NCBI RefSeq assembly: GCF_016808095.1 | Contig: NC_068975.1 | Span: 21,087,501 to 21,151,500 of the forward strand | Source of the DNA: Vigna angularis | Taxonomy: Eukaryota > Streptophyta > Magnoliopsida > Fabales > Fabaceae | Direction: 5' to 3' | DNA: 64,000 bases | Part shown: piece by piece, positions 13,498 through 40,237 of the stretch | Numbering within the stretch: position 1 is the first letter of the stretch | Layout of the letters: the number at the start of each line of letters is the position of its first letter | Translations under genes and position numbers: made by a program | Notes under the pieces: generated by a model | Database searches by the model: none | The model's input: only the letters and a program-made list of their open reading frames with translations | What the model was told of the DNA's origin: nothing

Positions 13498-13502
13498 GCC
13501 TA
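13498..13502. repeat. Target-site duplication GCCTA (left copy)
   Basis: GCCTA directly precedes the left LTR and is repeated exactly at 35080-35084 directly after the right LTR. Five bases is the duplication size expected for Ty3/gypsy integrases. It shows that both LTRs belong to one insertion. Confidence 0.93.
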
Positions 13503-13659
13503 TGTCAACACTCAATTTCGTCCGGGTTGATTAAATAAAATTTATTTTCACCAACAAAGGAAATAAATATCAAAAATACAAAAAAAAGGGGTATATAATA
13601 ACAAAAATTAAAAAATAAAATAAAATAGCAAAAAAATAAATAATAAAAAAAAGGGGTAT

Positions 13660-14060
13660 CAAACGTTCGTCCAAATAATGAGCGTACGTCCTTCCTCACT
13701 GTTGCTGAGCGTTCGTCCTTCCCCACTGTTGTTCAACCGTTCGTCCAAACTGTTGTTCAACCGTTCGTCCTTCCTCACTGTTGCTGAGCGTTCGTCCTTC
13801 CCCACTGTTGTTCAACCGTTCGTCCAAACTGTTGTTCAACCGTTCGTCCTTCCCCACTGTTGTTCAACCGTTCGTCCAAACTGTTGTTCAACCGTTCGTC
13901 CTTCCCCACTGTTGTTCAACCGTTCGTCCAAACTGTTGTTCAACCGTTCGTCCTTCCCCACTGTTCAACCGTTCGTCCTTCACCATTGTTCAACCGTTCG
14001 TCCTTCCCCACTGTTGTTCAACCGTTCGTCCTTCCGCACTGTTGCTGTGACCGTTCGTCC
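13660..14060 (+). repeat. TTCGTCC tandem array in the left LTR
   Basis: Units alternate between CCGTTCGTCCTTCCCCACTG and CCGTTCGTCCAAACTG followed by TTGTTCAA, making a higher-order unit of 52 bp with several copies. The array here is exactly one 52-bp unit longer than its counterpart in the right LTR (about 30783-31131). It lies in U3 upstream of the candidate TATA box. Confidence 0.9.
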
Positions 14061-16752
14061 TCATCATCAAGCGTTCGGTCATGTTTGTTAACGTTCGGTT
14101 TTGATGTGTTTTGTGTTAGTGAGCGTTCAGTTTTATTGTTTAATGAGCGTTCGGTCTTCACTTGAACGCTCGGTCTCATTTGAACGTTCGGTCTCCATGT
14201 GTTTGTCTTCAGCGTTCGTTCGTTTAGCGTTCGGCCCAGCAGCAGCAAACATCATTCGTCAAAGAAAGTGGTAAGGCGTTCGTCCTAATCACTCCCATCC
14301 TCGGCCGCTCGTCCACCTCAACCCTCTGAGTTCTCGTCCTGAGTTCTTTGAGCGTTCGTTCTCTTGTTGCGAGAACGTTCGTCCTTTTTCTCTTCTACCG
14401 TTCGTCCAGAGCGCTCGTCCTGAGCGCTCGTTCACAACACCCCTTTCTCAACGCTCATTCTGAGCGCTCGTCCACCTCCAACATCTATCTCTTCCCGCGA
14501 GCTCATCGTTATCCTCAGCCTGGTACCACCTCCAGGATTCATCTTCAACCTATCCTCACGGCCTTCATCTCCAACACCTCTTTATCCTCTCAATGAGCAA
14601 TTCGTGCTATCCTCCATTGCTTCATCACCTTTCCATCCTTTTGTTCCATCCCTCAGGTACCCATTCGAAACCAATAAACCAATGTTTTTTGAACCCATCA
14701 CCGAGAACATCACCATCCAGCATACCACACGCACAGAAGGATGCCCACAGTATGAAGATGAAGACAAGATGGAGGGGCCCTTACCCTATTTCCTCACGTC
14801 CAAGGACTGTTGCTCAGCATGCAATGGAATGTGTACTCACGGATTATTTCTGAATAGGAGGAGAGGCTCACGGGTTTTGAAGTTTTTTTTTTTATAAAAT
14901 TTTGTTTCTTCTTCACTCATAAAAAAAAACTCACTCATCAACCACACCCCCCAACACCCGTGATCATCTCCAACAATGAATGCCACGACTTAACTTCAAA
15001 CTCTATCACCCACTGCCGTAGCCATCTCCAACACATTATTTCCACTCCAGCCATCACTCTGCTCCTGAAACCCATCCCATAGAACCCATCGCCATCGTCC
15101 TTTTCCTCATCATTCCGCATCAACATCCTCATCTCGGGACCAACTTCATTCCAGCTCCCAGCCCGTAACCAATCAACCTCACCTCACGGCCAACGCTTGT
15201 TACAACCATACCTCCCTACCATCACTGCACAGGCGTTTTTGTTTATCCCCTCAAACCTGCATGAAATAGGATCCAACAATCTTATCAAAAAAAGGGAACA
15301 AGAGACATCTCTCCGACAAGAGAGGAGAAGGAGAATCCAAGAGGAGAAACGTTTTAAAGCTGCGCAGGTATGTTTTTTATCTAAACTCTCAGCCTTTTCT
15401 GTGTGAACGCATGCCCTCTGTTTAGATATGAATGAATGAGGTTGAGTACGAATGAATGATGTCGTATGTATGAAATATGTTTGATCAGTACGTACTAGTT
15501 TGCTTCACCTGTGACTTCACGGTTTGATCAAGAGCACACACCAATATGTATTTTCAATATCCAGATTCACTAAGTGTAAGTAATAATAGTTGAAGCATGC
15601 GTGAACTGAAGGACAGCCATACACTCACTGAACAGAGATCTCTGGGAAAACCGATTCCTCCATCAAGCACACCACGGGAATCTACTATTCCCCAACCATC
15701 ATCTTCATTCACTCATTTTTTTCTAGCATCTGTCCACTGTAACCATAGAAACCTCAACCTTTGAATCCTCTCACCCGTAACCGCCTCAACTCAATCTTCA
15801 TCCATCACTTTCATCCCCAACGCCACCTCCATCATCTTCAACCTATACCTCACGGCCATCACCCCTCACCTCCAACGTCCATCATCCTCATTCCTCTCCA
15901 TTCTCTGTCAATACCGAAAGAACCCCAAGAAACAACTCACGGCCTAACCTCCGAACGGCCAACATCACCACCAACCACCGTAAGTATCACCAACATCCCT
16001 ATAGCACCTCCACTGTCAAACAGCCTCCATCCCAGACACCATCAACTTCTTCTCTCGTCACCACGAAACCCCATTCACCTTCATCATCAATCAACTCAAC
16101 ACCACCGTGAAAACCCAACCTTCACGCTTCCACTTCAAACTTCCACCATCTTCATATTCATCTTCACCATTTTCAGCTCCGCCATCCACTATACCTCCGG
16201 CGTCTGCCCATCGCCCCGTGAACCCGTCATCCTCCTCCACGCCATCATCGCCGTTCCCCACCTCATCATCTTCATCTCCAAATCAGTCCAAATCAGCCTT
16301 CACCTTCGTCATCACCGAACAACATCCACACACCTAGCCCATTGTACAGTCAAGAAAACAACAAGATGAAAGAGAGGAAGATTTGGAACGAGTTCTGGTG
16401 ATGTTAGGGTCAGCCGGATGGCGTGGTGCCTGTCGGGGAGCAGCGGCCGTTTGGAGAAGAGGAGGCCGGCGTGTGGTCGCGCTTGAGGGGGGAGAGACCC
16501 TAAGTCTTTTTCTTTTTTTCGAATGAGTGAGAATGGGAGGAAAGGGGCAGAACCCCTAGTGTTTCAGCTGAAAGGAAGGTCTTGGGCCTGGGTCCAGACC
16601 GTTTCTCCTCTGCCACCCCCATTTCTTCTAAGTCGAGCCTTTTTTTTTCACTTGGGTTTTGGCCCAATCTGTTATCAGAATTTAATCCGGTTGGCACCCC
16701 TTTGTTTCGTTTCCACACCCCTTCTTGCACTTGGGTTTAGGCCCAATTCGTG

Positions 16753-16758
16753 TATAAA
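16753..16758 (+). promoter_or_regulatory. Candidate TATA box of the Ogre-type LTR
   Basis: GTGTATAAAGGG lies about 1.25 kb before the LTR end, after the long C/T-rich U3. Transcription would begin around 16785, placing the hairpin repeats in R/U5. The same site is at 33824-33829 in the right LTR. This is inferred from sequence and position only. Confidence 0.45.
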
Positions 16759-16974
16759 GGGAAAAATAGCTTAGGCACCCCTTTCTCTTATTTATGCACC
16801 TCCGCACTTTTTGCTATTTACTTATCATTTTTTTATTTGTCTTTTATTTTTATTTTTCCTTTGGTTTCCATTTTAAATATTTATCTACCCTTTTTAAGTA
16901 TACTTTTATAAACAATGAAAATATTAATAATAATGAATTTGACAAAATACAAAAAAATACGTTTTAAAGGTTTA

Positions 16975-17366
16975 GGCACATGTGTGATCACACGCATCGT
17001 CCTTGTGCCAAAAACCTTTTCTCTTTCTTTTTTCAAAAACGACAAAAATACGTTTTAAAGGTTTAGGCACATGTGTGATCGCACGCATCATCCTTGTGCC
17101 AAAAACTTTTTCTCCTTTCTCAAAAAACGCCAAAAATACGTTTTAAAGGTTTAGGCACATGTGTGATCGCACGCATCGTCCTTGTGCCAAAAACCTTTTC
17201 TCTTTCTTTCTTCGAAAATCACGAAAATACGTTTTAAAAGGTTTAGGCACATGTGTGATCGCACGCATCGTCCTTGTGCCAAAAACCTTTTCTCCTTCTT
17301 CAAAATCCCAAAAATATGTTTTAAAGGTTTAGGCACACGTGTGATCGCACGCATCGTCCTTGTGCC
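16975..17366 (+). repeat. Five spaced hairpin repeats in the left LTR
   Basis: A 35-bp block starting GGCACA and ending TGTGCC, with GTGTGATCGCACGCATCGTC-type sequence between, occurs at 16975-17009, 17066-17100, 17154-17188, 17246-17280 and 17332-17366. The ends are inverted repeats, and the T-rich spacers (51-57 bp) share TACGTTTTAAAGGTTTA. The right LTR has the same five at +17071. They lie downstream of the candidate TATA box, so they would be in the element's RNA. Confidence 0.9.
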
Positions 17367-18010
17367 AAAAACCTTTTCTCTTTCCTAAAACTAAAATACC
17401 AAAAACATATATAAAATCTTCAGAAACTAAAAAACCTCTACTTCTTTTCAAAACAACAAACAATATCACCTTCCAGAACTACGTGATCCTTGATTCTCCA
17501 TCAAAAGTGGAGATACGTAGGAGCAAGGCCAGTCCTTGTCAGGTTCATTCTCCCAAAAATCCAAATTTATCCATAACAAATTCTCAAACAAATTTCCAAA
17601 CAATTTTCTCAAACAGTTTTCAAAAGAACTACGTAACCCTGATTTCTCATTCTGCATGAGAGTACGTAGGAGCAAGGTCAATCCTTGTCGGGCCCAAAAA
17701 GCTAAAAAATATTGTTTGTTTCTTTTGAGTTTTATTTTAAGGGAAAGTTAAACACTTTGAAAACCACATCCACATTCGCGCATTTAGTTAAAGGTACTGC
17801 CTTAGGGCAGGCGTTGTAGGGTGCTAATACCTTCCCTACACGTAACCGACTCCCGAACCAAGAATCTGGTTCTAATTGACCATGCCTTATCATTTTATGG
17901 TTTTTCCGTAGTTTTCCAGAATAAACTATGGTGGCGACTCCAAAATCTCTTTTCAAAATCTATTCTTTTTTATTGGATCGTCGTCCCGTCGCGATTCCGG
18001 TTGCGACAGA

Positions 18011-18028
18011 TGGCGACTCCACTGGGGA
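18011..18028 (+). promoter_or_regulatory. Primer binding site, tRNA-Arg type
   Basis: TGGCGACTCCACTGGGGA starts two bases after the left LTR. It fits the 3' end of a tRNA (complement begins TGG, for the CCA end) and matches the tRNA-Arg-type primer site described for Ogre elements. It primes minus-strand DNA synthesis. Confidence 0.85.
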
Positions 18029-18869: not shown

Positions 18870-19995
18870 GAGGCCAAAGCTCTATACAACTAAATCGGGC
18901 AATATACCCATGTCCCGTCCTGGCTGAAGTTTATGGGACCCTTAATCGTTGTTACGAACTTAAAGAGGGAAAGATGTTATGTTGTCTACCAGTGGTGTAT
19001 TTGTGGTTCATTTCCCGTGAGACTGGAGACGCCTTAAATTCCCTGTACCCCATGGACGAATTATTGTAGTATGTAATCGATTACAAGGACGTTGTAAACG
19101 ATTACCCGAGAGAAAATTGGATTTTGTACAAAAAGTCTATCACAGGTACTCAGTCAGGTGAACATGGGTCACCATTGGAAAAAGAAGTGACTTTTAGACA
19201 CTTTTGCGCTTGTCTTAGGCTGTTCCTTGTGAACCACATGTGAAAAGAGTAAATGAATGGGCGCAACTTTGTGCAAGTTTAAATGAAGAACAAGTTAAAT
19301 GGTGTGTCCCTTGGGAGCATAGATCGCAGATTACATATCATTGCGGGAGGTATCCTAATGTACCCCTCATGGGTATTAGGTGTTGTATTAATTGCAATCC
19401 TGTGTTAGCGCAAAAAATAATTTGAGTATCCTGAGAGGATCGCTAACACCTGCATCTCTCGCCACATTGCAGATCATATGAGGAATGAATCTTCGTTGAA
19501 ATGTTCCATCAAGTTAAAGACAATTGGGGGCAATGTTGTTCGCTTCAATGAAAGGCCCAAGATCATGAACTGTTAATGAAAGTTTCCCTTAGCCAATGAA
19601 TCATAGAAAGGGTTAAGACAATCAAGTTGTAATTAATTTCCCTTACCCAAATTGCGAAAAGAAATTTCGAAATGATGAGCAGTGGATAGAAGCAGCAATG
19701 ACAAAACTAGAGAAGGAATGTTTCCATTTAGCTAAGAGGGAACATAAAAGATTGATTAGTCAGATGAAGAAAGAATATGTCGTTGAACAAGGACAAGTTA
19801 AAAGAATTGGAAGAGAAGTCTCTCACAGCTAGCTTCCCTTGCCAATGGAGCCATTGAAAACGTCCTTAAGTTCTTAGTTGATGCTGAGTCTGTAATATCA
19901 ATCATCAACCCGCCTAAGGGGATTGAAACATTCCTCAATAACTGCGAGAAACTGATCAGACAAATGAAGAATGTGATGACTAAAGCCTGCGATGG
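18870..19995 (+). pseudogene. Decayed Ogre ORF1 (the extra ORF upstream of gag)
   Basis: Ogre elements carry an ORF of unknown function before gag. Pieces of it are readable here in shifting frames. About 18920-19055 reads EVYGTLNRCYELKEGK then MLCCLPVVYLWFIS, ending at a TAG. About 19240-19425 contains the well-conserved phrase VPLMGIRCCINCNPVLA (family form close to VPLMGxRGCINYNP). About 19670-19980 reads charged, helix-prone sequence such as WIEAAMTKLEKECFHLAKRE. Stops and frame changes between the pieces mean no full protein can be made. Assignment is by remembered family motifs. Confidence 0.7.
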
Positions 19996-20260
19996 TTGAC
20001 CAAGAATTCCTATGTCTCGCATTTTGGGAACTTCTGAATGATGAATCGCCTTATTGACTCTGTTTCGTGTTAATTTCCAAAATTATACCGGGGCAAATAT
20101 TTTCACAGCTTTGTAGTTTCTGACTAGAGAATTTGAACTATGTTTTCTTTTCTTTTCTTTTTTATTTTTTTTATTTTTCTTTTTTCTTAATTTGTTTCAC
20201 AAAAAAAAATACAGCTAAGCATCTAAGACACCCTAAAGGACACGAACCAGTGGCAAAATC

Positions 20261-21169
20261 ATGGAGAACCAAGTAGAAGTTCAAGAGGGAATGAAAGCCG
20301 ATATCCGACAGCTGATGGAACAAATGAGACAAGTCCTAAAGACCCTGGATGCCTTACAAAGACCTGGATGTTTATGCATGCAACGATCACAACAAGGAGT
20401 TCCAGAAGCACAAACTTTCCCTTCCTATGGTCTTCCCCCGAATTATACTCCACCCTTAGGAGTGGACTTGGGACATCTCGACACTCAAAAGGTCGAAGGT
20501 AATGCAGTTGAAGTAAAAGACGAGCCTGGGGCAACCACTTTCACAATTCCTGGGCAGACGATCCAACCAGGTATTGAGAACACGATAATGAAAAAATAAC
20601 TTGAGACGAAGTCTCTATCTTCTGTCATTACACCAGCAGATTTTAAGGATGATAAGAGCAGATTAGAAGTCCTTGAAAAGAGGTTGAGAGCCATAGAGGG
20701 TGAAGGAAGTTTTGAATTTGGAGATGCTAAAAAACTATGTTTAGTTCCTGATGTGGTGATACCTCCAAAGTTCAGGCTGCCAAAGTTCGAGAAATATCGG
20801 GGAAATACTTGCCCGAGGGGCCATATAAGCATGTACTGCAGGAAAATGGCAGCTTATGCCCTCGATGAAAAACTTTTGATTCATTTCTTCCAACAAAGTT
20901 TAACTGACGAAGCTCTAACTTGGTACATGCGCTTAGAAACTACTCACATCTACTCATGGAAAGATCTGGTTGAGGCATTCCTAAGGCAGTATGGATATGA
21001 TAAAGATTTGACACCTGACAGAGCACAACTGCACAACATGGTGAAGAAAGAATCTGAATCATTCAGAGAATATGCCCAAAGATGGAGAGAAATTTCTGCT
21101 CAAGTAGAATCGCTTCTGAGCAACAAGAAGGTCACTACTGTATTTTTAAGTACTTTACAACCACCATGA
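20261..21169 (+). pseudogene. gag: gag N-terminal and capsid region with one in-frame stop
   Basis: Gag forms the virus-like particle that packages retrotransposon RNA. The frame opens at ATG 20261 (MENQVEVQEGMKADIRQLM, coiled-coil-like, as in Ogre gag), meets a single TAA at 20597-20599 and continues in the same frame to a stop at 21167-21169. The second part holds the retrotransposon gag domain: VVIPPKFRLPKFEKYRG, then MYCRKMAAYALDEKLLIHFF, LTWYMRLE, WKDLVEAFLRQYGYD and SESFREYAQRWREISAQVE. It ends at TLQPP, where family members continue into a linker and zinc knuckle. A frameshift and a motif-array insert follow. Unless the stop is read through, no complete Gag is made. Confidence 0.85.
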
Positions 21170-21244: not shown

Positions 21245-21790
21245 CGCTCGACGCAAGCACGCGGACAATCACCCTATGGACAACAGAGAGTACCTCATTA
21301 AGAACAGCGTGGGACGCTCGTCCAGCCAACACCATGGGACGCTCGTCCAGCGATTAGAAGGTCACGCTCGTCCTGCACTTAGAGTTGGACGCTCGTCCAA
21401 CGAGAGAGTTCAACGATCGTCCAAGAGAAGCGGCCGCTCGTCCTACATTTTCAAGAGGACGCTCGTCTAACCCAAGAGTTCGACGCTCGTCCGGCAACAC
21501 AAGTGGACGCTCGTCCACCAGAAGAGTTGGACGTTCGTTCGTGAAGCAGACGCTCGTGGATGCTTGCAGATGAGGACGTTCGCCCACCAAATTGAGTTGA
21601 ACGCTCGTCCAGGTTGACACTCGTGACGCTCGTCCAAGAGAATCGGCCGCTCGACCAACATTATCAAGAGGACGCTCGTCCAGCACCAAGAGTTGGACGC
21701 TCGTCCGGCAACACAAGTTGACGCTCGTCTAAGTGGACGCTCGTCCTAAAAAACGCTCGACATAAGTGGACGCTCGTCAAGATATCGGTT
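21245..21790 (+). repeat. GACGCTCGTCC motif array inserted within gag
   Basis: About twenty copies of GACGCTCGTCC or one- to two-base variants occur at intervals of about 23-27 bp, joined by variable purine-rich linkers such as AAGAGTTG. The array and the GC-rich sequence after it (to about 22050, with repeated CAGGCGCGA phrases near 21846 and 21872) separate the capsid part of gag from its zinc-knuckle remnant. The core resembles the TTCGTCC core of the LTR array. Short open frames across it are by-products of the repeat. Confidence 0.85.
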
Positions 21791-22379: not shown

Positions 22380-23110
22380 TGAAGAGGACTCTCGGATTAT
22401 TTGGAAAGCATAAATTATTGTAAAAGTTGGAACTGATGTTGTTTTGCTCGAGCTTTATTTTGTCTCACTATGAGGTTTATGCTCATTGATATCACGCTTT
22501 CATCCATGAATTTTAATGTGAAATTTCATTACTTGGTATCTCCAAGGTTTACTGGAAATCATGTCCTAATAGGGTGTCGCCAAACAAAAAAAAAATGATA
22601 AAAAAAAGGGAGGTTTGTCGAAATTTCAAATTTTGCAAATTTGTTTACAAGTTCATTTTTCCTCTCTTCCCATTTCTGCTTTGTCTCATATGCATAATGA
22701 TTTCAAAATTTTGTTTTTCATGCTCATGGTGTTCGCTTTGGATCTCATTTCATTCGAAGTCTTTTTCCGTATTTTCTTTGTAAATAATTTTATTTTCTTT
22801 TGAACCCAGTTTTCCATCATTTTGTTTAATTTAGAAATTTTGTTTAGACTGAAATCAAAGAAAAACCATAAAAATCTAATTTTATTTCATCATTTGGGCA
22901 AGATTCACAGTAAGGTCGGAGAGATGTTTTGAACAAAGACATCATTCTGAATATACTGAAACGATCTTAACATTTGATAAATAAAATAAAAATGCATAAG
23001 AAAAAAAAGCAAATAAAGCAGAAAATAAACAAAGGCAAATAAACAGTGTTCAGGGTTCGATCACTAGTGATCGTTAATATTACAAACCGTGAAATATAAA
23101 AATAAAATAA
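22380..23110. other. Spacer between the gag remnant and the antisense gene
   Basis: No coding frame is recognisable. The part adjoining the antisense gene probably includes its 3'UTR: a minus-strand AATAAA lies near 22880. A perfect 16-bp palindrome CGATCACTAGTGATCG is at 23058-23073. Confidence 0.45.
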
Positions 23111-23117
23111 AAGCAGT

Positions 23118-23371
23118 TCAATGGAAGAAAAACTCTCGAGCTGGTTGTGGTGGTCGAAGAGACAGCTCCGTCGAGGGAGGTCTGATGTGGAATCCGCGGA
23201 ACACAGGAGGCGCTGGTGGAGGGAGTTGTCGTTCATCTCTGTCATCCTCAATGATGATCGGAACGGGGAACAAGTCCAGCAGCCTCGGCGCCCGCATGAT
23301 CACCCAGTCGTATTCTTTCAAAAAAAAAAAAGTAAAAAAAATTTGTCAATAATAAGATGAGGAGAAATTTT

Positions 23372-23412
<41 letters not shown>

Positions 23413-23708
23413 TGGAGGTGATCAGGGTACTTACCATACATGTATAGCGGCAGTTGTGAGAACTGAGTGCCGGTAGGGTCTATCTCTGCTTGCCAGCGCC
23501 TGACCCGATTGCCGTGGTTGTTAAACCAGCAATGCACATTGTATTCAGTGGCATCTGCGAAAACCCTTAGTCGAGACGCAATTTCGACAACTTGCGCTCT
23601 GCTGGGATGTGTGACCCCGTAATTGTAAATATTGGTCATCATTCTGACTTGATCGTCAGTAGGTCTCCACCGCTGACTGGTGTACCTCTCCATCTCCATC
23701 TCGTTCAT
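23118..23708 (-). CDS. WUSCHEL-related homeobox (WOX)-like protein, antisense inside the retrotransposon
   Basis: Two exons, 23708-23435 and 23314-23118, are joined by a 120-bp intron with donor G/GTAAGT and acceptor GAAAG; the join keeps the frame and gives 156 residues. Residues 13-72 form a WOX-type homeodomain: RWRPTDDQVRMMTNIYNYGV, later LRVF, then NVHCWFNNHGNRVRR as the recognition helix. Plant WUS-clade proteins usually read NVFYWFQNHKARxRQ there, so the WF-NH-R frame is kept but Q, K and A are replaced by N, G and N. In exon 2, RLLDLFPV (102-109) resembles the WUS-box TLxLFPxx, a repressor motif, followed by acidic and Pro-rich sequence. WOX proteins are nuclear regulators of stem-cell and organ growth. 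The gene is opposite to gag and occupies the place of pol. It may be a captured host gene. Whether it is expressed is unknown. Confidence 0.82.
23315..23434 (-). other. Intron of the WOX-like gene, with long homopolymer
   Basis: On the minus strand it begins GTAAGTACC and ends in a T-rich tract plus AG. It contains a run of over 30 A on the plus strand (about 23374-23407), that is poly-T on the transcribed sense, which works as a polypyrimidine tract but may be of unreliable length. Confidence 0.75.
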
Positions 23709-23726
23709 CTTTCCTCTCTAGGTTTT

Positions 23727-24640
23727 CTAAAACAAAAAACAAATAATAAAAAGTAAAAAGAACAAAAACATAACGAAAGCATAAAACAAAAAAAAAAAAG
23801 AGGTATTTTCAGTGTTTTCTTTATTCGTTTTTGTTTCCTTTTAGTTTATTTTGTCTGGTCAGTCTTTGTTATTTCAGTGTCCGGTCTCGGATCTGTTTTA
23901 CGGTCCTCGCAAAGGTTCCTAAACGGATCTATGTCCTTTTGTCCTTGTCCATATTGTCCATGTCCGGTTCATCAAATAAATTCTCTTTTTAAGTTTTCTG
24001 ATTTTATGGGGTACGTGGCGTTGTTCTACCCGATTGTCTCTGCCATACCTTCAATCGAAGGGAGATTAACGTCTGGTTTCCAGCCTATATACCCCTTAAG
24101 TTTAAGACAGTTGTGTTTTAAGTGTTTTGAGTTTTTAAATTAATAAAAAAAAAGAAGAGAAAAGAGAAAAGAAGACTCAGAAAGAAATGCAAAGAAGAGC
24201 AAGACGGAAATAAAAGCAGACAAAGCAGAAAGCAGAAGAAAATAAAGAGCTTGCAAAAAGGAAAGTACGAAAGGAAAAACGGAAAAGGGAAGAGAGGAAG
24301 GAAAGCAGGGAAATCGAAGAAGGGAACCAGAAAGAAAAGCAAGAACAGAAAGCGTAAAAAGAAAAAAAAAAGACAACAGAGAAAGGGAAGAGGGAAAGAA
24401 AGTTAGAGAAAGCGAAAAAAAAGGAAAGGAAAAAGGAAGAACGAAAAGTTTAAGGAAAGAAAGTGAGATTAAGAGATCGGAGGACTTACCTGGAAGCGCA
24501 AGGCTCACAGAAGCTCGTCGCAGCACTGGGACACCTCCAAAAGCTCACGGGGGCAGAGGCTCCTCTCAGAACTCAGACGCTCAAGGAAGAGAGAGGAAGA
24601 GAGGGATAGAGAGAGAATAGGCAGATCAGAAAATGTCGCT
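23727..24640 (-). other. Probable 5' leader exon and leader intron of the WOX-like gene
   Basis: Reading the minus strand from about 24635, a CT-rich leader runs to a consensus donor CCAG/GTAAGTCC at 24490/24489. An acceptor TTTGTTTTAG ends at 23727, 18 bases before the start codon. This predicts a non-coding first exon of about 145 nt and a 763-bp intron, whose sense strand is strongly pyrimidine-rich (plus strand GA-rich at 24138-24470). Such an arrangement is ordinary for a plant gene. The splice sites are read by eye. Confidence 0.55.
24138..24470 (+). repeat. Purine-rich (GA/AAG) tract
   Basis: About 330 bases are almost entirely A and G on the plus strand with scattered C and T. It lies within the predicted leader intron of the antisense WOX-like gene. 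Long open frames on its complement are composition artefacts. Confidence 0.85.
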
Positions 24641-24660
24641 CGACCCCGAAGGGATAACCA

Positions 24661-24667
24661 TTTTATA
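24661..24667 (-). promoter_or_regulatory. TATA box of the antisense WOX-like unit
   Basis: The minus strand reads GGCTATAAAATGG. A start about 30 nt downstream (near 24635) would open directly into the pyrimidine-rich leader that ends in a consensus splice donor. Position, motif and leader composition agree with a plant core promoter. Confidence 0.5.
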
Positions 24668-24899
24668 GCCGGAAATTTCCACTGTGGCTACAGTTCCGGT
24701 CGCTGCAACCGTCTGGTGTCGGTCTGATTTCTTTCTGAGTTTTACAAAAAAAAAATAATAAAAATAAAAATAAAAAAATTTTGAAAATCTGAAAACGGGT
24801 AGGGTTTTGTTGGGTCGATCGGCCCAATTTAAGACTTCTTGGATGATCCGATTTCACCAAAAAGTAATAAAACAAAAAAAAAATCAAAAGTATGATAAA

Positions 24900-30610: not shown

Positions 30611-30625
30611 GTAAAGAGGGGCAGC
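30611..30625 (+). promoter_or_regulatory. Polypurine tract
   Basis: GTAAAGAGGGGCAGC lies immediately before the right LTR. Its A/G core primes plus-strand DNA synthesis in LTR retrotransposons, so its abutting position fits the element's structure. Confidence 0.85.
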
Positions 30626-33600
30626 TGTCAACACTCAATTTCGTCCGGGTTGATTAAATAAAATTTATTTTCACCAACAAAGGAAATAAATATCAAAAAT
30701 ACAAAAAAAAGGGGTATATAATAACAAAAATTAAAAAATAAAATAAAATAGCAAAAAAATAAATAATAAAAAAAAGGGGTATCAAACGTTCGTCCAAATA
30801 ATGAGCGTACGTCCTTCCTCACTGTTGCTGAGCGTTCGTCCTTCCCCACTGTTGTTCAACCGTTCGTCCAAACTGTTGTTCAACCGTTCGTCCTTCCTCA
30901 CTGTTGCTGAGCGTTCGTCCTTCCCCACTGTTGTTCAACCGTTCGTCCAAACTGTTGTTCAACCGTTCGTCCTTCCCCACTGTTGTTCAACCGTTCGTCC
31001 AAACTGTTGTTCAACCGTTCGTCCTTCCCCACTGTTCAACCGTTCGTCCTTCACCATTGTTCAACCGTTCGTCCTTCCCCACTGTTGTTCAACCGTTCGT
31101 CCTTCCGCACTGTTGCTGTGACCGTTCGTCCTCATCATCAAGCGTTCGGTCATGTTTGTTAACGTTCGGTTTTGATGTGTTTTGTGTTAGTGAGCGTTCA
31201 GTTTTATTGTTTAATGAGCGTTCGGTCTTCACTTGAACGCTCGGTCTCATTTGAACGTTCGGTCTCCATGTGTTTGTCTTCAGCGTTCGTTCGTTTAGCG
31301 TTCGGCCCAGCAGCAGCAAACATCATTCGTCAAAGAAAGTGGTAAGGCGTTCGTCCTAATCACTCCCATCCTCGGCCGCTCGTCCACCTCAACCCTCTGA
31401 GTTCTCGTCCTGAGTTCTTTGAGCGTTCGTTCTCTTGTTGCGAGAACGTTCGTCCTTTTTCTCTTCTACCGTTCGTCCAGAGCGCTCGTCCTGAGCGCTC
31501 GTTCACAACACCCCTTTCTCAACGCTCATTCTGAGCGCTCGTCCACCTCCAACATCTATCTCTTCCCGCGAGCTCATCGTTATCCTCAGCCTGGTACCAC
31601 CTCCAGGATTCATCTTCAACCTATCCTCACGGCCTTCATCTCCAACACCTCTTTATCCTCTCAATGAGCAATTCGTGCTATCCTCCATTGCTTCATCACC
31701 TTTCCATCCTTTTGTTCCATCCCTCAGGTACCCATTCGAAACCAATAAACCAATGTTTTTTGAACCCATCACCGAGAACATCACCATCCAGCATACCACA
31801 CGCACAGAAGGATGCCCACAGTATGAAGATGAAGACAAGATGGAGGGGCCCTTACCCTATTTCCTCACGCCCAAGGACTGTTGCTCAGCATGCAATGGAA
31901 TGTGTACTCACGGATTATTTCTGAATAGGAGGAGAGGCTCACGGGTTTTGAAGTTTTTTTTTTTATAAAATTTTGTTTCTTCTTCACTCATCAAAAAAAA
32001 CTCACTCATCAACCACACCCCCCAACACCCGTGATCATCTCCAACAATGAATGCCACGACTTAACTTCAAACTCTATCACCCACTGCCGTAGCCATCTCC
32101 AACACATTATTTCCACTCCAGCCATCACTCTGCTCCTGAAACCCATCCCATAGAACCCATCGCCATCGTCCTTTTCCTCATCATTCCGCATCAACATCCT
32201 CATCTCGGGACCAACTTCATTCCAGCTCCCAGCCCGTAACCAATCAACCTCACCTCACGGCCAACGCTTGTTACAACCATACCTCCCTACCATCACTGCA
32301 CAGGCGTTTTTGTTTATCCCCTCAAACCTGCATGAAATAGGATCCAACAATCTTATCAAAAAAAGGGAACAAGAGACATCTCTCCGACAAGAGAGGAGAA
32401 GGAGAATCCAAGAGGAGAAACGTTTTAAAGCTGCGCAGGTATGTTTTTTATCTAAACTCTCAGCCTTTTCTGTGTGAACGCATGCCCTCTGTTTAGATAT
32501 GAATGAATGAGGTTGAGTACGAATGAATGATGTCGTATGTATGAAATATGTTTGATCAGTACGTACTAGTTTGCTTCACCTGTGACTTCACGGTTTGATC
32601 AAGAGCACACACCAATATGTATTTTCAATATCCAGATTCACTAAGTGTAAGTAATAATAGTTGAAGCATGCGTGAACTGAAGGACAGCCATACACTCACT
32701 GAACAGAGATCTCTGGGAAAACCGATTCCTCCATCAAGCACACCACGGGAATCTACTATTCCCCAACCATCATCTTCATTCACTCATTTTTTTCTAGCAT
32801 CTGTCCACTGTAACCATAGAAACCTCAACCTTTGAATCCTCTCACCCGTAACCGCCTCAACTCAATCTTCATCCATCACTTTCATCCCCAACGCCACCTC
32901 CATCATCTTCAACCTATACCTCACGGCCATCACCCCTCACCTCCAACGTCCATCATCCTCATTCCTCTCCATTCTCTGTCAATACCGAAAGAACCCCAAG
33001 AAACAACTCACGGCCTAACCTCCGAACGGCCAACATCACCACCAACCACCGTAAGTATCACCAACATCCCTATAGCACCTCCACTGTCAAACAGCCTCCA
33101 TCCCAGACACCATCAACTTCTTCTCTCGTCACCACGAAACCCCATTCACCTTCATCATCAATCAACTCAACACCACCGTGAAAACCCAACCTTCACGCTT
33201 CCACTTCAAACTTCCACCATCTTCATATTCATCTTCACCATTTTCAGCTCCGCCATCCACTATACCTCCGGCGTCTGCCCATCGCCCCGTGAACCCGTCA
33301 TCCTCCTCCACGCCATCATCGCCGTTCCCCACCTCATCATCTTCATCTCCAAATCAGTCCAAATCAGCCTTCACCTTCGTCATCACCGAACAACATCCAC
33401 ACACCTAGCCCATTGTACAGTCAAGAAAACAACAAGATGAAAGAGAGGAAGATTTGGAACGAGTTCTGGTGATGTTAGGGTCAGCCGGATGGCGTGGTGC
33501 CTGTCGGGGAGCAGCGGCCGTTTGGAGAAGAGGAGGCCGGCGTGTGGTCGCGCTTGAGGGGGGAGAGACCCTAAGTCTTTTTCTTTTTTTCGAATGAGTG

Positions 33601-35079
33601 AGAATGGGAGGAAAGGGGCAGAACCCCTAGTGTTTCAGCTGAAAGGAAGGTCTTGGGCCTGGGTCCAGACCGTTTCTCCTCTGCCACCCCCATTTCTTCT
33701 AAGTCGAGCCTTTTTTTTTCACTTGGGTTTTGGCCCAATCTGTTATCAGAATTTAATCCGGTTGGCACCCCTTTGTTTCGTTTCCACACCCCTTCTTGCA
33801 CTTGGGTTTAGGCCCAATTCGTGTATAAAGGGAAAAATAGCTTAGGCACCCCTTTCTCTTATTTATGCACCTCCGCACTTTTTGCTATTTACTTATCATT
33901 TTTTTATTTGTCTTTTATTTTTATTTTTCCTTTGGTTTCCATTTTAAATATTTATCTACCCTTTTTAAGTATACTTTTATAAACAATGAAAATATTAATA
34001 ATAATGAATTTGACAAAATACAAAAAAATACGTTTTAAAGGTTTAGGCACATGTGTGATCACACGCATCGTCCTTGTGCCAAAAACCTTTTCTCTTTCTT
34101 TTTTCAAAAACGACAAAAATACGTTTTAAAGGTTTAGGCACATGTGTGATCGCACGCATCATCCTTGTGCCAAAAACTTTTTCTCCTTTCTCAAAAAACG
34201 CCAAAAATACGTTTTAAAGGTTTAGGCACATGTGTGATCGCACGCATCGTCCTTGTGCCAAAAACCTTTTCTCTTTCTTTCTTCGAAAATCACGAAAATA
34301 CGTTTTAAAAGGTTTAGGCACATGTGTGATCGCACGCATCGTCCTTGTGCCAAAAACCTTTTCTCCTTCTTCAAAATCCCAAAAATATGTTTTAAAGGTT
34401 TAGGCACACGTGTGATCGCACGCATCGTCCTTGTGCCAAAAACCTTTTCTCTTTCCTAAAACTAAAATACCAAAAACATATATAAAATCTTCAGAAACTA
34501 AAAAACCTCTACTTCTTTTCAAAACAACAAACAATATCACCTTCCAGAACTACGTGATCCTTGATTCTCCATCAAAAGTGGAGATACGTAGGAGCAAGGC
34601 CAGTCCTTGTCAGGTTCATTCTCCCAAAAATCCAAATTTATCCATAACAAATTCTCAAACAAATTTCCAAACAATTTTCTCAAACAGTTTTCAAAAGAAC
34701 TACGTAACCCTGATTTCTCATTCTGCATGAGAGTACGTAGGAGCAAGGTCAATCCTTGTCGGGCCCAAAAAGCTAAAAAATATTGTTTGTTTCTTTTGAG
34801 TTTTATTTTAAGGGAAAGTTAAACACTTTGAAAACCACATCCACATTCGCGCATTTAGTTAAAGGTACTGCCTTAGGGCAGGCGTTGTAGGGTGCTAATA
34901 CCTTCCCTACACGTAACCGACTCCCGAACCAAGAATCTGGTTCTAATTGACCATGCCTTATCATTTTATGGTTTTTCCGTAGTTTTCCAGAATAAACTAT
35001 GGTGGCGACTCCAAAATCTCTTTTCAAAATCTATTCTTTTTTATTGGATCGTCGTCCCGTCGCGATTCCGGTTGCGACA
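30626..35079 (+). repeat. Right LTR of the Ogre-type element (4454 bp)
   Basis: It is identical to the left LTR apart from one missing 52-bp array unit and two substitutions that I could find (positions 31870 and 31992, matching 14799 and 14921). It contains the same TTCGTCC array (30783-31131), TATAAA at 33824, five hairpin repeats (34046-34437) and U5 end. Identity this high points to a very recent insertion. Confidence 0.95.
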
Positions 35080-35084
35080 GCCTA
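35080..35084. repeat. Target-site duplication GCCTA (right copy)
   Basis: It matches 13498-13502 exactly and closes the insertion. Confidence 0.93.
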
Positions 35085-39781: not shown

Positions 39782-40237
39782 TCAACTGGCAAGCTTAAAG
39801 GCATCAATGAATAGTCCATAGGTGAAACCCATTTTAAAGTTGTTGAGAAGAGCAACTGGGAAAGTAACTTTTGGTCGGCTGTAATAGAATTTAGTCACAT
39901 ATTCTGTAAGAAGAACACATAACACTGCAGCAATAACATCATTCACTCCTAGAGCTCCAAAAGACAGTGAGATTGTTTGTGCAACATAGAATCCACCCAA
40001 CAAGGAGATTCCACCAAACAGAGCCCTGCGAGAAGGACTTCTGAAGTAATTTCTTGAGAACTCCGGCACACGTCTTATGATGTCCACCAGCCTTCGTGGT
40101 CCACCATTTTCTTGCACCGCCCGAATGCGAAGTCCTACTGAAGATCTGCGAACAAGACTTCCAGAAACACTGACTTTGGTTTTCAGAATTGGACCAAAAC
40201 TGAGGCCCATAGCGACCAAGCTTGATGAATGTGCCAT
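39782..40237 (-). CDS. Ycf20-like (DUF565) protein, probably chloroplast-targeted
   Basis: A single coding exon gives 151 residues. Residues 1-40 are rich in Ser, Arg and hydrophobic residues with few acidic ones (MAHSSSLVAMGLSFGPILKT), like a chloroplast transit peptide. The rest matches the Ycf20 family pattern: RALFGGISLLGGFYVAQTIS (about 71-90) as the first membrane segment, then GVNDVIAAVLCVLLTEYVT (about 97-115) as a second, and a conserved tail FKMGFTYGLFIDAFKLAS. Ycf20 is a plastid-encoded protein in algae; Arabidopsis nuclear homologues (NPQ6, NPQ7) were linked to non-photochemical quenching, with the biochemical role unclear. The start is the ATG at 40237, the only one that gives a transit-like N-terminus. 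The length fits the family. Confidence 0.88.
   Translation of the reverse strand: MAHSSSLVAMGLSFGPILKTKVSVSGSLVRRSSVGLRIRAVQENGGPRRLVDIIRRVPEFSRNYFRSPSRRALFGGISLLGGFYVAQTISLSFGALGVNDVIAAVLCVLLTEYVTKFYYSRPKVTFPVALLNNFKMGFTYGLFIDAFKLAS

Follow-up and report, generated by a model that had tools for sequence, protein, structure and literature searches.

In the genus Vigna, WOX genes lying between identical LTRs with target-site duplications, and amplified in V. marina and V. riukiuensis, were described by K. Naito in a 2023 meeting report (PMC10714607). Because that report already records WOX amplification by LTR elements, capture of a WOX gene followed by a burst of copies is not new. However, the accessible text of the report mentions neither orientation, element type, selection test, promoter, leader block nor sharing between element types, and it does not name V. 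angularis. Tat-lineage elements are known to carry antisense ORFs, to which no function had been assigned as far as the accessible parts of the papers go (PMC7264820, PMC11963269). Located between pol and the 3' LTR, these ORFs code for TRP28 or for proteins that lack clear relatives, and for Grande a promoter has been described upstream of gene23 (PMC11963269, accessible text); the words homeobox, homeodomain, WOX and WUS are absent from that text. Large Ogre-like Gypsy elements of Phalaenopsis have acquired a host-type functional domain, AlkB, which is an RNA demethylase rather than a transcription factor, and neither homeobox nor homeodomain occurs in the accessible text on them (PMC9289625). 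In rotifers, according to the accessible part of PMC5408684, ORF3 types are common to different retroelement classes, but these are animal elements carrying enzymes, without an antisense WOX cassette.

In this study, we found that V. angularis LTR elements carry an intron-bearing WOX homeodomain gene. Like the WOX genes of V. marina and V. riukiuensis, it is present in many copies between near-identical LTRs with target-site duplications; like the Tat-lineage antisense ORFs, it is antisense in Tat-like elements and lies between pol and the 3' LTR. The open-access literature searched gave nothing on its orientation, selection on it, its promoter and transcription unit, its conserved leader or its presence in two element types. 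Of six pattern matches among viral contigs, none was a relative.

The gene was recognized in a 64,000-nucleotide stretch of V. angularis DNA, referred to here as the window, where the minus strand of 23118-23708 encodes a two-exon, 156-aa protein of WUS/WOX type (Table 1). It is enclosed in one young LTR retrotransposon (13503-35079) and is antisense to gag, which agrees with the initial annotation of an antisense gene in a young Ogre-like element. Between the two LTRs, 4455 aligned sites show 2 differences, a transition and a transversion (K2P 0.00045), and there is also one 52-bp gap. The primer-site-like motif TGGCGACTCCACTGGGGA is presumably of tRNA-Arg type. A tRNA-Arg primer is used by Ogre, according to the accessible text of PMC9289625. 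Ogre/Tat traits of the window element are its 4.5-kb LTRs and an extra ORF before gag, whose DUF7745 remnants sit in separate stop-free pieces; gag is interrupted by a stop between the open pieces 20237-20596 and 20600-21166. Thus, ORF1 and gag are indeed broken in an element whose WOX frame is open, as had been noticed at first sight. Among the 30 stop-free pieces scanned, a subset of those in the window element, none showed a pol domain. Short tandem repeats occur around CGTTCGTCC in the LTR (13683-14061) and around GGACGCTCGTCC beside gag (21303-21778), and the latter array falls in a stretch absent from two other pol-less copies, L033 and L040.

Table 1. Features of the window element and of the WOX transcription unit (window coordinates; leader and promoter features are predictions)
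Feature	Position	Strand	Evidence
Target-site duplication GCCTA, 5 bp	13498..13502; second copy 35080-35084	.	sequence
5' LTR	13503..18008	+	LTR-to-LTR comparison
Primer-binding-site-like TGGCGACTCCACTGGGGA	18011..18028	+	sequence
Broken ORF1, DUF7745 pieces	18872..19422	+	PF24924, E 3.3e-10 and 6e-18
Broken gag	20600..21166	+	PF03732, E 6.7e-15; stop precedes
WOX coding exon 2 (WUS-box-like LLDLFPV, EAR-like TELSLRP)	23118..23314	-	AtWOX5 alignment
Coding-sequence intron, 120 bp, GT-AG	23315..23434	-	GT and AG in 40/40 aligned copies
WOX coding exon 1 (start codon and homeodomain)	23435..23708	-	PF00046, 28.8 bits; open in 37/40 copies
Putative leader intron	23727..24489	-	donor GTAAGT 24489-24484, acceptor AG 23728-23727
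Leader block, most conserved stretch around the WOX gene	23985..24130	-	divergence, genome matches
Putative non-coding leader exon	24490..24635	-	sequence only; start guessed from distance to TATA-like element
TATA-like element CTATAAAA, putative antisense promoter	24661..24668	-	CTATAA in aligned stretch, 40/40 copies
Polypurine-tract-like AAAGAGGGG	30613..30621	+	sequence
3' LTR	30626..35079	+	LTR-to-LTR comparison

The 156-aa product matches the Pfam homeodomain PF00046 with 28.8 bits (E 1.1e-6; curated cut-off 22.9), and its best sequence matches among solved structures are the homeodomains of STENOFOLIA (E 2.4e-10) and WUSCHEL (E 1.3e-9). The proposed union of a WUS-type homeodomain with a WUS-box-like LLDLFPV across a GT-AG intron thus holds. 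For a close relative of the window protein, P0002, the AlphaFold2 model has helices at 18-29, 37-47 and 55-75; its mean pLDDT is only 57.4, with 10-residue means of 72-86 over residues 11-60. Foldseek with this model also ranked the STENOFOLIA and WUSCHEL homeodomains first, with E below 0.001 for one match only. A chance homeodomain match was ruled out by the Pfam and solved-structure matches, the fold and the relatives. In exon 2, LLDLFPV aligns with the AtWOX5 WUS-box and TELSLRP with LDLRLSFL at the AtWOX5 C terminus; the WUS-box pattern TLxLFPxx is followed by LLDLFPV, except at the first residue, and by TLDLFPI in lineage C (see below). With the plant WUS-clade proteins WUS, STF and WOX5 the window protein has in common the homeodomain fold, the WUS-box and an LxLRL-like C-terminal motif at the WOX5 position, but its homeodomain is ~36-39% identical to theirs and its gene is borne by an element. 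Its recognition helix reads FNNHGNR in place of the FQNHKAR of the host WOX proteins compared, which bears out the exchanges Q to N and K-A to G-N that the initial annotation had pointed to. Homeodomain positions 50, 53 and 54 are changed, and the Asn after position 50 is kept in all 27 full-length members compared.

Searching proteins yielded 59 clusters that together hold 258 sequences, all of them from V. angularis and drawn from several assemblies. In six gene models the neighbouring sequence is fused on, and these correspond to the minus strand of the window element at 18.1-18.3, 21.3-21.7, 24.5-24.7 and 26.1-26.7 kb. A DNA search of the own genome gave 505 candidates, the best 40 of which were scored and all used in the frame and dN/dS counts; apart from the window itself, they are 82-91% identical to it (the 41st listed DNA match is a short piece beside L003). 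Among 150 matches listed, 120 are A-like homeodomains (111 without a stop), 25 are B-like (18 without a stop) and five are exon-2 matches. Twenty long loci were fetched with ~4.7-kb flanks and twenty shorter ones with 1.5-kb flanks only, so that the presence of pol was judged in the long loci. All 20 of these have the WOX gene antisense in a common backbone, and in five (L027 and L036-L039) it is preceded by an open sense-strand pol ORF of 1153-1213 codons, which ends 0.82-0.87 kb before the WOX gene. Four pol ORFs scanned, all from other copies than the window copy, which has no pol, contain a reverse transcriptase, two RNase H domains (RT_RNaseH and RVT_3) and an integrase, and a second RNase H in pol marks the Ogre/Tat type. 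The WOX gene is therefore accessory and sits where the antisense ORFs called aORF-3R do, after pol and before the 3' LTR (antisense in 20/20 long loci, after pol in 5/20), and it is retained in pol-less copies. The window copy lost its pol: the initial annotation was right that pol is missing there, but the WOX gene is not a substitute for pol. With the LTRs enclosing the gene and other copies having the same backbone, a nested or neighbouring host gene was ruled out.

Homology of the window to the pol-bearing copies begins at 22582-22600, and a junction test sorted the 40 copies into 21 pol-less ones, in which homology crosses the junction, five pol-bearing ones and 14 undecided ones. In a tree of the WOX frame the pol-bearing and pol-less copies are interleaved, with four label changes among 26 labelled rows, which likely reflects recombination or repeated loss. 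Within each of the pairs L018/L021, L019/L022 and L038/L039, 16-22 kb apart, the WOX frames are identical; these pairs are perhaps tandem elements with a common LTR, or segmental copies.

The WOX frame is open over its full length in 37 of the 40 copies scored, the best of 505 candidates, where open means to residue 152 or 156 (requiring the end to fall on the last base of the aligned exon leaves 11 of 40). ATG, GT and AG are kept in all 40. The broken frames are those of L031, L034 and L036, the last, with a stop, being one of the five pol-bearing copies. Pooled NG86 dN/dS over 780 pairs of the 40 copies is 0.198 (codon bootstrap 0.12-0.30), a method that ignores recombination, which is likely among these copies; neither the pairs nor the 40/40 counts are independent, since the copies are related (36 different coding rows among 40). 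The 13 pairs with dS below 0.02 have a ratio of 0.81, and in bins of dS greater than 0.2 it falls to 0.16-0.20, as expected if replicating lineages are constrained and inserted copies then drift. Nine noncoding pseudo-frames gave 0.54-0.96, shifted frames 2.13 and 0.98, and opposite-strand frames 1.80, 0.285 and 1.84. Constraint on another frame was ruled out on the ratios of the shifted and opposite-strand frames, all 0.98-2.13 except one; the opposite-strand frame at 0.285 was not taken as a gene because the two exons that it links are separate on that strand. The WOX reading frame is thus under purifying selection, at which the initial annotation had hinted from the open frame. In the same nine non-identical pairs of pol-bearing copies dN/dS is 0.12-0.19 for pol and 0.14-0.31 for WOX, and among the 21 pol-less copies it is 0.18 for WOX.

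Constraint is unevenly distributed along the protein. In 27 full-length members (the window protein and 26 of the 59 proteins; the other 33, being truncated, fused, shifted or distant, were left out), changes are scarce in helix 3 (4 versus 18.0 expected) and in the WUS-box (5 versus 13.6), and in excess in the acidic/proline stretch (32 versus 22.4) and in the tail (21 versus 9.1). In the EAR-like stretch eight changes were counted against 11.1 expected, a deficit that is not significant. Synonymous differences are also few in helix 3 (window 23496-23546, codons 55-71; pS 0.015 versus 0.144 for the whole frame), a value that rests on few sites and could be due to chance.

Judged from its signals, the WOX gene apparently is a transcription unit with a promoter of its own and two introns, one in the leader and one in the coding sequence. 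The donor GGTAAGT of the putative leader intron is present in 40/40 copies and its acceptor just before the start codon in 38/40, and a second AG at 23719-23718 may serve as an alternative leader acceptor. In 50-bp windows from -1000 to -450 upstream of the WOX gene divergence is 0.11-0.40, whereas in 20-bp windows of the leader block, from 24128 to 23989, it is 0.01-0.06; all 40 scored places of this block in the own genome, out of 471 candidates, are 98-100% identical. The block includes TTAAT and TTGAA, which contain TAAT and TGAA, motifs named in titles of WUS-DNA structures. As motifs this short are common by chance, they are a lead only.

The leader block is also found in a second type of element, together with WOX genes of another lineage. 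Lineage B has the recognition helix FQNHGNR, and the homeodomain of its member P0061 is 58% identical to that of the window protein. One lineage B gene, L041, lies between 2.2-kb LTRs that show four differences in 2195 aligned sites and are flanked by the duplication TAGGA. Beside the LTR stands TGGTATCAGAGC, which we take to be a tRNA-iMet-type primer site; like the polypurine tract, it is on the strand opposite the WOX gene. This element therefore runs opposite to its WOX gene, which is antisense again. No sense-strand open stretch of 100 codons was seen in this smaller element, and its LTRs gave no match to those of the window element. Nevertheless, L041 3695-3807 matches the leader block with 95.6% identity over 113 bp, at nearly the same distance from the start codon, despite the lack of any BLASTN match between the WOX exons of L041 and the window. 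L043 has a similar LTR pair, no exact match to the L041 primer motif, and the leader block at 87.7% over 81 bp. L042 has the block at 97.9% over 97 bp, and the 6 kb read there contain no repeat pair. None of these three B copies has the GGTAAG donor found in the A copies, and CTATAAAA near -938 occurs in L041 only. Either one element type would have received the cassette from the other, or the two acquired it from a common source. In L042 526-1005, a lineage B WOX copy is close to a plus-strand open frame that by eye resembles an EF-hand host protein, and three near copies of this place are on C2 among the matches listed.

By annotation, V. radiata, V. umbellata and V. mungo also have lineage B, and V. 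umbellata has lineage C, which is annotated as WOX5-like. In our tree, lineages A, B and C group together (100/99), separate from WUS, STF and the WOX5/7 proteins of legumes, Arabidopsis and grape; these are all the WOX clades in the tree.

Taken together, we read the locus as a WUS-clade-derived antisense accessory gene of an Ogre/Tat-like V. angularis family, which is kept by selection and whose product is proposed to be a repressor that aids transmission; we give this reading as a whole a probability of about 70%. The antisense transcript would be made and spliced, yielding a small nuclear DNA-binding protein of altered specificity that may repress transcription through its WUS-box and EAR-like motif. 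Meristem or germline-precursor cells would be the most likely site of action, where the protein may tune the element's own transcription or host genes such that the element is transmitted. An intron-bearing gene could survive retrotransposition in this way because it is antisense: the sense RNA of the element carries its splice sites in reverse, so that introns would be kept and the promoter would pass intact through the RNA intermediate. Selection keeps the gene in pol-less copies as well, which suggests a benefit to the copy making the protein, via its own transcription or the cell lineage in which it acts.

That pol-less copies retain the gene would also fit selection at the level of the host, with amplified copies serving the plant as extra WOX genes, and WOX bursts have been reported in two coastal Vigna species (PMC10714607, accessible text). 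However, the copies are young, numerous, dispersed and tied to one element backbone, and a contribution to coastal adaptation is called unknown in the same 2023 text, so we consider this reading unlikely. Slightly less probable still is selection chiefly on the antisense RNA or the leader block, as a cis element or RNA signal with the protein secondary. The leader block exceeds the coding exons in conservation and recurs in another element, and folding is better than in shuffled sequences for its sense strand (z -2.87) but not for its antisense strand (z -1.01), so that a signal in the element's own RNA is possible; against this, RNA alone does not explain the frame-specific codon constraint or the conservation of helix 3 and the WUS-box, and the single match in an Rfam scan of 23600-24750 is far below the gathering score (25.3 versus 100 bits). 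A neutral passenger, i.e. a host gene fragment captured once and copied along unused, would account for the high ratio in the closest pairs and for three broken copies, as expected after insertion, but is very improbable, and neutral decay was ruled out, given 37/40 open frames and a dN/dS of 0.20 versus 0.54-0.96 in the noncoding controls. Nor did either of the outcomes that the initial annotation had named as speaking against its proposal appear, these being the lack of a homeodomain match and random breakage with dN/dS near 1.

Going beyond the accessory-gene reading, we tentatively propose, with the odds rather against it, that a self-contained antisense cassette of promoter, near-invariant leader block, introns and homeodomain repressor passed between two Vigna LTR element types. 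It may serve these elements as a transcription factor that binds the leader block, or that reprograms meristem or germline-precursor cells for transmission, and by analogy would be a counterpart of retroviral antisense regulators such as HBZ.

Our results suggest that V. angularis elements, as genome parasites, use a developmental regulator of their own. Here a Tat-type antisense ORF is a recognisable transcription factor with a dN/dS near the value for pol in these elements, and since it is found in a crop with many young copies, its function is directly testable. They also suggest a route by which retroelements may carry intron-bearing genes with their own promoters, and serve as a warning that annotated Vigna WOX genes include element genes. 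Elsewhere in the window, the minus strand of 39782-40237 holds a 151-aa open frame that presumably resembles a host plastid protein, Ycf20-like.
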